64,000 nt of DNA from NCBI GenBank assembly GCA_016934825.1, contig JAFGSB010000078.1:1-64000 (forward strand). Direction: 5' to 3'. The position numbers were made by a program, and so were the translations under genes. The notes beneath the pieces are model-generated. The model searched no databases, was not told the DNA's origin, and worked only from the letters and a program-made list of their open reading frames with translations. The first letter of the stretch is position 1. Each line of letters starts with the position of its first letter. Source of the stretch: Candidatus Zhuqueibacterota bacterium. GTDB lineage: Bacteria > Zhuqueibacterota > Zhuqueibacteria > Residuimicrobiales > Krinioviventaceae. Positions 15,203 through 19,360 of this stretch are shown here, one piece after another.

Positions 15203-16177
15203 ATGTATAAAAGAATTGTCACACACAGTGATTTTGACGGAGTGGCCAGCGCGGTCATCTGCGCTTATGCGCTGAAAATCAATTTTATTGTATTTACCCA
15301 GCCCAGAACTGTGACTGACGCGCAAATATCCATAACCGGTGAGGATGTAGTTTGTGATTTGCCTTACCCCCTGGAATGCGGTATGTGGTTCGATCACCAC
15401 GAAGGTAATCTGGAAGATCTGGAATACCGGAAAATCGATCCGGCTTCTATTCCGGGTTGTTTTGAAATCAAAAATTCATGCGCCCGTGTCATATATGATT
15501 ATTTCAGGAATAATAAAGAACTGCCCGAATACTATGCGGAGATGGTAGATGAAGCGGATATAATCGATTCCTTTGATTATAAAAATATAGAGGATTGGCG
15601 TAAAGAAACACCGGGGAAAATAATTGATTGCACTATAAAACTCTCCGAACAAAGTTTTCAACAAAAATGGCAATATTTAAAGAGCCTGGTTCTGCTTCTT
15701 AAAGACCGCCCGATACGGGAGGTTGCATTATTACCCGGGGTAAAAAAGCGTTACCATAAATTTCAGGCCGAGGAACAGCAAATGATAGATAAAATACGCG
15801 ATGATATCTATTTTTTGCCGGAAGATAACCAAAAACAATTAATGATTATTGATTTGACAAAATATAAAAAAATCCCTCGGATCATGAAACATTTAGCTTA
15901 TTTAATTTATCCTGACGCGCTTGGAGTACTGCAAGTCGGTAACATGTATCATAATCAAATTAAAACAAATAATCTTTCTTTGTCCATGTCACTGAGTCTA
16001 AATCTTAACAATGTGGAACATAATAAAGATGTCGGGGAAATAATGAGGCAGTTAAATATTGGAAACGGACATGCCGGGGCCGCATCGGGGGTAATTTACT
16101 GTGATTCGAAAAATGAAATGCTGAAAACAAAAGACAGGATACTCAGAGAAGTTTTTTCTCAATTTAAACAGCAGTGA
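15203..16177 (+). CDS. DHH/DHHA1-type phosphoesterase
   Basis: 324 residues, cytoplasmic. The DHH superfamily metal site is visible: THSDFDGVASAVICAYAL at 7-24, DLPYPLECG near 53 and FDHHEGN near 63. The C-terminal DHHA1-like part has IGNGHAGAASGVIYC near 290, equivalent to the GGHxxAxG phosphate-binding loop. Members hydrolyse oligonucleotides, cyclic dinucleotides, pAp or act as RecJ; this short form lacks RecJ's extra domains and CBS/GGDEF modules, so the substrate is open. Follows the secreted protein by 8 bp and is convergent with the DUF4956 gene (6 bp). Confidence 0.8.
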   Translation: MYKRIVTHSDFDGVASAVICAYALKINFIVFTQPRTVTDAQISITGEDVVCDLPYPLECGMWFDHHEGNLEDLEYRKIDPASIPGCFEIKNSCARVIYDYFRNNKELPEYYAEMVDEADIIDSFDYKNIEDWRKETPGKIIDCTIKLSEQSFQQKWQYLKSLVLLLKDRPIREVALLPGVKKRYHKFQAEEQQMIDKIRDDIYFLPEDNQKQLMIIDLTKYKKIPRIMKHLAYLIYPDALGVLQVGNMYHNQIKTNNLSLSMSLSLNLNNVEHNKDVGEIMRQLNIGNGHAGAASGVIYCDSKNEMLKTKDRILREVFSQFKQQ

Positions 16178-16183
16178 AAAAAT

Positions 16184-16876
16184 TTAAAATGTATCACCGC
16201 TCTCTTCGCCCATAATCAGAGATACCCGCTCAATTCCTTCGACAGCGCTCAATTCGCCAATGAACTTGTGTTGTTCTTTTTCATCTTTAAAGCGGATATT
16301 ATATGATACCTCTAAAAACTGTCCCAACCGGGCGGAACGCATATACATTAATACATGCTGTGTCAGATACTTCTTGAATATTTTCAGAAAAGGCTGGTCA
16401 TCGCTGAGATCGGATTGCATCCAAAACCTTAACATCAGCTCTTTGTGGAAAATCTGGCCGTAATTTGAAAAATATAATATTAGAATAATAATACTGATCA
16501 GGATGGTACCGACCGTTCCGATCATAATACTCCCCGCACCGGTAGCCATACCGGCAGACAATGCAAAAAACACAAAGGCGATATCGCGGGTATCCTTGAC
16601 TGCGGTCCTGAATCGAATTATTGACATGGCGCCGACAAGACCGAACGCACGTGCAAGATTATCGCCGATAATCATCATGACAATTGTTGTCACCATAGAA
16701 ATGATGACCAGAGTATTAACAAAGGCTGATGAATAAGAGTATCCTTTATAAGTAATTCGATAAATTGAAGAAATGATAAATCCAAGTATAAATGCGGCAA
16801 GAATATTAATCAGGGCATCAAAAAAAAATACATTTGAGGTATTTATAAAAAGGGAATCAAAAACAGTTTGCGGCAT
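16184..16876 (-). CDS. DUF4956 membrane protein
   Basis: 230 residues. Four hydrophobic segments (about 18-40, 50-72, 95-120 and 122-142) and a soluble C-terminal domain of about 85 residues resembling a small ferredoxin-like fold. The signature FGLVGAMSIIRFRTAVKDTR and the glycine-rich AGMATGAGSIMIGTVG are typical of the DUF4956 family, which is regularly encoded beside bacterial VTC-domain proteins, as here (15-bp gap). It could form the membrane channel through which polyphosphate is moved, in analogy to the membrane part of the yeast VTC complex; this is inference. AAGGA lies 7 nt before the start. Confidence 0.8.
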   Translation of the reverse strand: MPQTVFDSLFINTSNVFFFDALINILAAFILGFIISSIYRITYKGYSYSSAFVNTLVIISMVTTIVMMIIGDNLARAFGLVGAMSIIRFRTAVKDTRDIAFVFFALSAGMATGAGSIMIGTVGTILISIIILILYFSNYGQIFHKELMLRFWMQSDLSDDQPFLKIFKKYLTQHVLMYMRSARLGQFLEVSYNIRFKDEKEQHKFIGELSAVEGIERVSLIMGEESGDTF

Positions 16877-16891
16877 TATTAAATCCTTTGA

Positions 16892-17632
16892 TTAATTTAC
16901 ATTCATTACGCATCTTTCTACACCCATACAATATTTTGAAATTGATTCCGGGGATACCTTAATTTTCTGGATCAATTTACGCATCCACTTTGGCATATAA
17001 TCATCAAACTTGAGTTCCAGTATACACTGCGATTCTGTAACAGGGACCAGGTCCTTTTCATGGTAAATACTGTTCAGTGAATCGCATTTGCATGCTCGCA
17101 CGTTATAATCTATTGTCAATCTTTCCCGATTATCATGTTTGCCGACAAACGCATCACGGTGGTACACGATAAGCACCACGGGTTCCAGATTTAATTTCTC
17201 AATATTATAAATAAATTTACCGAGCACGATTGAGCCGTTTGCCTGTTTCAGAGACAACCAGTTGGTTTCATCACCGTTTATTATATCCTCAATTTGAGGT
17301 ATGGGGTACTTGGCGCGTTCTTTAACAACCGCGTTTGTGTATTTCCGTTTTATTTCTAAAAAACCGTAACTTCCGGGTTGATGATTATCGTTATATGCCC
17401 TGATTCGGAGTTTTTTCCGGATTTGCAATCCATCCATTTTTTGGTAGTAAAAGTCCAGATGCGGAGTATCAAAATACAAACTGCGCACAATGTAGCGATG
17501 ATCTTTCTGTTTTTTTGAATAGGGATCCAGATTTACATACGGTCGAATAAAATGTTTTATTTCTTCTACTTTATCATAAGGGACATAGTATTTAATCTCG
17601 GATCGTCCCTTTTTCATGTTAAAAATATTCAT
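16892..17632 (-). CDS. VTC-domain protein, probable polyphosphate polymerase
   Basis: 246 residues, no membrane segment. Triphosphate-tunnel fold of the VTC/CYTH type: basic tunnel residues in QIRKKLRIRAYN (about 74-85), FLEIKRKYTNAVVKERAKYP (about 96-115) and YHRDAFVG, with the acidic strand ILELKFDDYMPKWM near the C-terminus. The eukaryotic VTC4 domain makes inorganic polyphosphate from ATP; bacterial stand-alone homologues with DUF4956 partners are presumed to do likewise. It stands between a HlyD-like adaptor and DUF4956 in one operon with gaps of 12 and 15 bp. No kinase of the PPK1/2 type is nearby. Confidence 0.78.
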   Translation of the reverse strand: MNIFNMKKGRSEIKYYVPYDKVEEIKHFIRPYVNLDPYSKKQKDHRYIVRSLYFDTPHLDFYYQKMDGLQIRKKLRIRAYNDNHQPGSYGFLEIKRKYTNAVVKERAKYPIPQIEDIINGDETNWLSLKQANGSIVLGKFIYNIEKLNLEPVVLIVYHRDAFVGKHDNRERLTIDYNVRACKCDSLNSIYHEKDLVPVTESQCILELKFDDYMPKWMRKLIQKIKVSPESISKYCMGVERCVMNVN

Positions 17633-17644
17633 TTAAATCTGACT

Positions 17645-18748
17645 TTATCTTTGTAAATATTTTTCCCATTCACGTTTTATAATCTGATAAAAATCCGTCC
17701 TTCCAGTTTTTATTTTCGCTACTCCTGTCATACCCGGTAAAATACTAAAATCGTGATTACTTATTTTTGCCTGTACTATATACATGGGTTTTTCGTATAT
17801 TGTTTCCGCTGTTCTACTAATTTTATCTATCCGGGTCGTATCTACCCGGCCGAGCATACTGTTAAAATGGATATTTACAGGAAATTCTTTTTCAATATAT
17901 TTCAACTGATGTTCCCGAATAATTATTTGAACGACAAGTGTATCAATTTTGTTCACACCAAATAAAATAGTATTATCTAAAAACGATTCCCGTAACACAC
18001 CGGAGATCGGTGCGATTATTGATTGCGCTTTTAATTTTTTCTGTAAAATATTTATTTGATTTTCATAATCCGCCGCAACTGTTTTTATTTTATCAATATC
18101 CGCCTGTTTGGCGCCGGATTCAACAGATTTTAATCTGGCATCTGCTAATGAAACGTTTAATTTATATAATTCGTATGTCGATTCGGCAATCTCAAGTTCC
18201 CGCTCGCTGACTAATTTTTGATTATACAAATTCCTGATACGCTCGACCTGGGGCGAATATGCTGATAATTCAGCTTTTGCCACATTCAGGGCCTGCTCCG
18301 CTTCTTCCCGGACGGCGGGTTTATCACCCGTTAATAATACGGCTAAATCCGCTTTGGTTTGGTTCAATAACCCCTGCAAACCGGATAGTCGTATATTATC
18401 TTCATACGAAAAAATGTTGGCAACAGATTCACCCTGTTCAATATATCCTTTTTTTAATATATCATTATTTAAATTAAAATCAATGAAATCCGGCCGGCTG
18501 ACATGAAGTAAATTAAAATGTTGTATGATATTGGAATCATTATTCCGGATAACAGACATAATTTTGTCGGGCTCATTCTGTACAACCGTCCATTCGGATT
18601 GGGCGACAAAACGACAAGGACATTTTAATACATTATCGAATTTAATTAATACCGATAATACAATTATCGCGCCGATTATAACGACGCAGTATAGAATTAA
18701 ATTTAATTTATTTTTTCCGCTCACAATTTTATTCAATTTATCAATCAA
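17645..18748 (-). CDS. HlyD-like membrane-fusion/adaptor protein
   Basis: About 367 residues. One membrane segment near the N-terminus (residues 15-36), then a periplasmic part with a lipoyl-like half, a long helical hairpin (about 120-235, AEQALNVAKAELSAYSPQVE, ERELEIAESTYELYKLNVSL), the second half with SIIAPISGVLRESFLDNTIL and a beta-barrel domain with LPGMTGVAKIKTGR. This is the layout of HlyD/EmrA adaptors, which join inner-membrane transporters to outer-membrane factors. No transporter or TolC is adjacent; the downstream partners are VTC and DUF4956. The start is uncertain: the first in-frame codon available is TTG at 18748 inside a terminator-like U-run; TTG 18736 or GTG 18724 are alternatives, none with a good ribosome binding site. 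Confidence 0.78.
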   Translation of the reverse strand: MIDKLNKIVSGKNKLNLILYCVVIIGAIIVLSVLIKFDNVLKCPCRFVAQSEWTVVQNEPDKIMSVIRNNDSNIIQHFNLLHVSRPDFIDFNLNNDILKKGYIEQGESVANIFSYEDNIRLSGLQGLLNQTKADLAVLLTGDKPAVREEAEQALNVAKAELSAYSPQVERIRNLYNQKLVSERELEIAESTYELYKLNVSLADARLKSVESGAKQADIDKIKTVAADYENQINILQKKLKAQSIIAPISGVLRESFLDNTILFGVNKIDTLVVQIIIREHQLKYIEKEFPVNIHFNSMLGRVDTTRIDKISRTAETIYEKPMYIVQAKISNHDFSILPGMTGVAKIKTGRTDFYQIIKREWEKYLQR

Positions 18749-18774
18749 AAAAATACCCGGCAGTACTTCCGGGT
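18747..18774 (-). terminator. terminator-like hairpin at the hlyD-like start (attenuator candidate)
   Basis: Minus-strand ACCCGG and CCGGGT (18769-18774 and 18755-18760), 8-nt loop, then A and seven U residues (18747-18753). The U-run overlaps the first possible start codon of the HlyD-like gene. As no gene lies between the tRNA-Asn terminator and this site, it is best read as a leader attenuator or as the end of a short leader RNA. Confidence 0.6.
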
Positions 18775-19283: not shown

Positions 19284-19288
19284 AAAGC

Positions 19289-19360
19289 TCCGGTGGTAGG
19301 ACTTGAACCTACAACCTAGTGATTAACAGTCACCCGCTCTGCCGATTGAGCTACACCGGA
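19289..19360 (-). tRNA. tRNA-Asn (GTT anticodon)
   Basis: 72 nt on the minus strand. The acceptor arm TCCGGTG pairs with CACCGGA, the D-loop region reads AGCTCAATCGG, the anticodon loop is CTGTTAA with anticodon GTT, and the T-loop is GGTTCAAGTCC. CCA is not encoded. It has its own promoter 12 nt upstream and a strong terminator directly downstream, so it is a single-gene unit below yhaM. Confidence 0.95.

Follow-up and report, generated by a model that had tools for sequence, protein, structure and literature searches.

Gene arrangement at the locus

As claimed in the initial annotation, a unit of three genes is present on the minus strand at 16184-18748 of the window (the whole stretch of 64,000 nucleotides that was analysed), with a gap of 12 bp between the first two open reading frames. 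The features of the locus are as follows:

16184-16876, minus strand: DUF4956 gene (PF16316)
16892-17632, minus strand: VTC-domain gene (PF09359), stand-alone, 246 aa
17645-18748, minus strand: adaptor gene, an ORF call assigned to its family by a fold model and sub-threshold profile matches
18206-18241, minus strand: RLS TolC-docking motif R170-x3-L174-x6-S181 at the adaptor hairpin tip (residue numbers count from the TTG)
18755-18774, minus strand: terminator-like hairpin with U-tract, shortly before the adaptor start

The order of transcription is adaptor, VTC, DUF4956, and the second gap measures 15 bp. The 3' neighbour of the trio is a convergent DHH-family gene with its end at 16177; on the 5' side, about 0.5 kb of non-coding DNA is followed by a tRNA at 19288-19360. 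No CotH gene adjoining the operon was found by a Pfam scan of the window genes. The hairpin, CCCGG...CCGGG followed by ATTTTTTTG, is located about 30-50 nt ahead of the adaptor start, and a diverged but equivalent hairpin is seen in the same place at the congener locus L033. It is possibly an attenuator or a protective 5' hairpin. Because the TTG at 18748 lies inside the U-tract of this hairpin, which is common to the congener, the true start of the adaptor is probably the GTG at 18724, giving a protein of 359 aa; this start is also favoured by the alignment of relatives.

Properties of the three proteins

The VTC protein is a member of PF09359 (E=2.8e-49, positions 2-232 of 235), and according to Pfam this is its only domain, with no SPX domain. 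Residue correspondence was obtained by profile alignment to yeast Vtc4 (3g3q), with numbers equal to the chain index plus 185. The catalytic assignments follow the Vtc4 structure. From window to VTC4, the corresponding residues are K14 and K200, R76 and R264, R78 and R266, K95 and K281, K104 and K294, R159 and R361, R171 and R373, E206 and E426, K208 and K428, and K233 and K458. The numbering was checked for R264, R266 and E426 against PMC9911596 and for K458 against PMC4641920. A loss of the catalytic tunnel residues, which the initial annotation had named as evidence against its reading, was not seen: they are invariant in 126 of 126 aligned VTC proteins, except that the R373 site is kept in 125 and is K in one. 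In the hydrolytic TTMs, four glutamates form a second metal site, and Vtc4 has basic residues instead (PMC4641920). By alignment, three of these four acidic-patch positions are basic here, as in VTC4, and the fourth (E12) is acidic. Position 12 is E or D in all 126 sequences, resembling Glu-4 of the hydrolytic TTMs, and is T in VTC4. The acidic-patch pattern leans towards a polymerase without deciding the question. It is fairly likely, judging from the sequence, that the VTC protein makes polyphosphate. No measured activity of any bacterial VTC was found in the open-access literature.

The adaptor falls below every curated family cut-off, with sub-threshold matches to RND_mfp TIGR01730 (5e-14), PF16576 (0.0045) and further MFP models. 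Its AlphaFold model, built with 18 relatives (pLDDT 85), displays one N-terminal TM helix, a long alpha-hairpin and lipoyl/beta-barrel domains, and the best PDB fold matches of the model are MacA, EmrA and AcrA, with E from 1e-12 to 1e-15. On the basis of these matches to the predicted structure, the adaptor is a membrane-fusion (periplasmic adaptor) protein; MFP chains are also matched in a profile search. The earlier description of the adaptor as HlyD-type is valid at the superfamily level, but not for the type I secretion HlyD family TIGR01843, where the score is 19.1 bits against a cut-off of 208.65 and no ABC gene is linked. The hairpin tip carries RxxxLxxxxxxS, known as the TolC-binding motif (PMC3391258). 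It is exact in the window adaptor and in 71 of the 105 aligned adaptors; the first position is R in 103 and the second is L or M in 102.

The DUF4956 protein belongs to PF16316 (E=7e-15, 55.5 bits against a gathering score of 30.6). The four-helix membrane protein of the initial annotation is recognisable in four strongly hydrophobic helices of the model, but a fifth membrane-region helix, amphipathic and containing the invariant R88-F89-R90, and a C-terminal ACT/ferredoxin-like domain are also predicted; G82, G109 and G113 are invariant as well. A PDB fold search of the model returned only ACT/ferredoxin-like folds, all from the C-terminal domain and with no whole-protein match, and a profile search of PDB gave no match. 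MgtC is a regulator, and it appears to be the nearest relative of DUF4956, though a distant one (hhalign probability 74%, E 3e-5; NCBIfam MgtC/SapB 1.4e-4). The weak profile similarity lies in the membrane domain, and a C-terminal ACT-like domain is shared with the MgtC/SapB family; in contrast to that family, DUF4956 is bound in an operon to VTC and remains under the Pfam gathering score of MgtC PF02308 (18.3 vs 31.4 bits). A streptococcal DUF4956 protein has also been described as a distant MgtC relative (PMC12345266).

The initial annotation suggested that the operon could be a bacterial counterpart of the coupled synthesis and translocation of the yeast VTC complex (Vtc1/Vtc3/Vtc4). The trio and the yeast complex share the PF09359 catalytic domain, the tunnel residues and a polymerase placed beside a membrane protein, and, as a proposal, the coupling of synthesis with translocation. 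However, the trio has no SPX domain, a periplasmic adaptor is added, and DUF4956 shows no relation by sequence or fold search to Vtc1, the yeast VTC membrane domain. The likeness is one of analogy; homology does not extend to the complex as a whole.

Conservation of the trio and its outer-membrane partners

A VTC relative was found in 44 of the 82 genomes of the window's phylum, and 20 loci, window included, have the order adaptor, VTC, DUF4956. The same order was present in 75 of the best 80 loci kept from a VTC-profile scan of GTDB species genomes, a scan that favours loci like the query. Four of the 75 repeat contigs already counted, so that the survey of adaptor genes beside VTC-DUF4956 suggested earlier yielded 91 distinct trio loci in many phyla: KSB1, Calditrichota, Krumholzibacteriota, Eisenbacteria, Latescibacterota, Zixibacteria, Neomarinimicrobiota, Fermentibacteria, Ignavibacteria and Bacteroidota, including the isolates Lunatimonas lonarensis, Belliella buryatensis and Echinicola arenosa. 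A 761-aa "VTC fusion" at L176 was rejected, being an artefactual long reading frame that overlies an ordinary trio. Because of the preference of the scan for query-like loci, an evenly spread set of 198 Bacteroidota was also searched, with the Pfam VTC model only. VTC was found in 37 of them; the trio order was seen in 17 of these 37, and VTC, DUF4956, adaptor in 4 more. Strong adaptor-profile matches (E<1e-60) occurred in 21 genomes of the phylum, all VTC-linked except one at a contig end.

A maximum-likelihood tree of 100 VTC proteins covering all architectures (quick search, LG+G4) puts the trio VTCs in one group, with a single change of the trio label (SH-aLRT 94), and all six architecture labels need six changes, compared with about 41 in shuffles. 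Between the three proteins, the correlation of pairwise distances is r 0.86-0.89, a figure taken without species-tree control. A random insertion of the adaptor, absent in relatives, had been raised at the outset. It is ruled out by the recurring order, the linkage within the phylum and the single change on the VTC tree; the adaptor has been kept across many phyla. The three genes form a unit of ancient origin that many outer-membrane bacteria have conserved, and the proteins very probably form one assembly.

The absence of a transporter ATPase and TolC noted in the initial annotation was also borne out: no OEP/TolC gene is present on the window's contig, and no pump ATPase accompanies the trio. 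No ABC signature or Walker motif was seen in the genes directly linked to the trio, apart from an ambiguous 12-TM protein at L109. A TolC-type gene is located directly behind DUF4956 in 4 of the 91 trio loci, all in Cytophagales; it is identified by Pfam OEP (6e-39) at L112 and by similarity at L120, L122 and L141. In a sister architecture of the window's phylum the order is DUF4956, adaptor, OEP, VTC, and a gene for a lamin-tail surface protein often comes next. Among Bacteroidota without the adaptor, VTC and DUF4956 are followed by a DUF2490 outer-membrane-barrel-like protein at six loci (by Pfam at L202, L207 and L214, by resemblance at L209, L212 and L215); in B. thetaiotaomicron, adjoining DUF4956 and DUF2490 genes are listed under a single iron-responsive entry (PMC10434189). 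No adaptor was found in six Gram-positive VTC loci. Because TolC, OEP and DUF2490 forms occur while the Gram-positive loci have no adaptor, an outer-envelope part appears from the gene order to have been joined to the VTC-DUF4956 core in more than one way, and among those seen only in outer-membrane bacteria.

Several minor features were observed in these architectures. The sister loci L063, L064, L065, L066, L070 and L071 encode a long adaptor with a C-terminal beta-propeller-like tail; the adaptor frame is shorter at L066, and the contig starts inside the adaptor at L071. No clear RLS motif was found in the class C adaptor, and the resemblance of its tail to SdiA-regulated/phytase-like proteins is weak (E 0.002 at best), so that no claim is made for it. 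Three distant trio loci have an SdiA-regulated/phytase-like beta-propeller protein immediately after DUF4956 (L081:2356-3117, L109:7464-8213 and L124:7399-8193).

Elsewhere in the window's genome there are 20 OEP matches, none of them on the window's contig, and 11 CotH matches. A second VTC locus of the same genome (L074, G000:C175, 283-4301) has the order DUF4956, CotH-domain protein, VTC, with no adaptor. PPK2, a polyphosphate user or maker, is present, and PPK1 was not found in this genome, which is about 95% complete. VTC as a stand-in for PPK1 is not supported, since PPK1 is also kept in 7 of the 20 trio genomes of the phylum.

The proposed envelope assembly and its alternatives

The VTC/DUF4956 pair was correctly taken as a known bacterial neighbourhood, and the association with CotH has been described as well (PMC7112168, PMC12345266, PMC2879425). 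The VTC-DUF4956 core is shared with this bacterial CotH / polyphosphate polymerase / DUF4956 cassette (pel-linked in streptococci and clostridia, and NELoc-2 of C. perfringens), and CotH adjoins many trio loci. The Gram-positive cassettes examined differ from the trio in having no adaptor, and the window differs from the cassette in having no adjacent CotH. No mention of an adaptor- or TolC-coupled VTC-DUF4956 form was found in the open-access literature; this coupled form appears to be the new part. With the tripartite MFP-TolC exporters (MacAB-TolC, EmrAB-TolC, T1SS), the trio shares the adaptor fold, the N-terminal TM helix, the RLS tip and, in some relatives, the joined TolC. Its inner-membrane unit differs, being a putative polymerase with DUF4956 instead of an ABC, RND or MFS pump.

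A tripartite-like assembly is well supported, and we infer that polyphosphate is its substrate and is exported. As proposed here, a VTC polymerase and a DUF4956 inner-membrane unit would act with the adaptor and a TolC-type channel in the export of polyphosphate, a reading in which confidence falls slightly short of even. The cytoplasmic VTC protein would polymerise phosphate from ATP in its tunnel, as the conserved residues suggest. It would sit on DUF4956, a predicted inner-membrane protein that resembles MgtC and has an ACT-like domain on the cytoplasmic side; DUF4956 may anchor or regulate the VTC protein, or let the chain cross the membrane. Anchored in the inner membrane, the adaptor would span the periplasm and dock by its RLS tip on a TolC-type channel encoded elsewhere in the genome; the docking motif is present in the window adaptor, and the partnership with TolC is seen only as gene linkage in relatives. 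Exit of the product by way of the adaptor and such a channel is likewise judged slightly less likely than not. Export would be driven by synthesis and not by a pump ATPase, as in yeast VTC, and the exported polyanion may act at the cell surface, often with secreted CotH-type kinases that are encoded next door in relatives. Support for an assembly that spans the envelope comes from the docking motif, from the operon TolC of some relatives and from the Gram-positive versions, which have no adaptor.

The chief rival to export is the modification or regulation of a surface polymer together with CotH. According to this rather unlikely alternative, the assembly would act on a surface polysaccharide or surface protein instead of exporting free polyphosphate: VTC would make a phosphate chain or transfer phosphate to a carrier, DUF4956 would sense through its ACT domain, and CotH would attach phosphate outside. 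In streptococci, clostridia and bifidobacteria, VTC-DUF4956-CotH genes are found next to pel loci (PMC7112168). In S. intermedius, which has no adaptor, deletion of DUF4956 raises Pel, deletion of CotH lowers Pel, and deletion of VTC gives no aggregation phenotype (PMC12345266). Many trio loci have CotH or lamin-tail surface proteins as neighbours, and one rumen plasmid VTC locus sits among glycosyltransferases. However, no glycosyltransferase or polysaccharide synthase was found among the window genes scanned around the operon, and the TolC motif of the adaptor points to export of a soluble product.

Several points speak against the export reading: TolC stands in the operon of only those 4 loci and not in that of the window; DUF4956 resembles a regulator, MgtC, and is unrelated by search to Vtc1; position 12 of VTC is acidic; PPK1 occurs in 7 of the 20 trio genomes of the phylum; and, in S. 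intermedius, deletion of VTC gave no aggregation phenotype while that of DUF4956 or CotH altered Pel. Both the scarcity of operon TolC and the MgtC likeness would agree with an intracellular role, as would a genome with PPK2 and no PPK1. In that case VTC would make polyphosphate within the cell under control of the MgtC-like DUF4956, and the adaptor would stabilise the complex or signal envelope stress, moving nothing through TolC. This is considered unlikely: conservation of the RLS tip would be expected only where it contacts a TolC-type channel, three architectures have outer-membrane components joined to them, and the Gram-positive loci seen have no adaptor. The adaptor could also serve an unlinked RND, ABC or MFS pump and merely be co-transcribed with VTC-DUF4956, as MFPs normally partner an inner-membrane pump and OEP genes are many in the genome, but this is very improbable given its one origin, its strict linkage over many phyla and the lack, as a rule, of any pump gene accompanying the trio.

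To our knowledge, no export machinery has been identified for the bacterial placement of polyphosphate outside the cell. An intact VTC active site and a TolC-docking adaptor, sometimes with TolC, are here combined in a conserved set that also exists in culturable Bacteroidota, and therefore the question of polyphosphate export becomes directly testable. DUF4956, an uncharacterised family, gains a concrete set of partners. If the export reading is true, the range of inner-membrane units using MFP-TolC conduits would be wider. In a more speculative and rather unlikely reading, the trio might be a tripartite exporter of a novel type, with the polymerase in the place of the pump. Growth of the VTC chain would then push polyphosphate by way of DUF4956, adaptor and TolC to the cell surface, and secreted CotH-type kinases, which have no ATP outside the cell, would use it there as a matrix or a donor of phosphate.

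In NELoc-2 of C. perfringens, CP4_0461 and CP4_0464 are given as "tubulin/FtsZ GTPase" beside VTC genes (PMC2879425). By size, membrane prediction and position, these genes are probably DUF4956.
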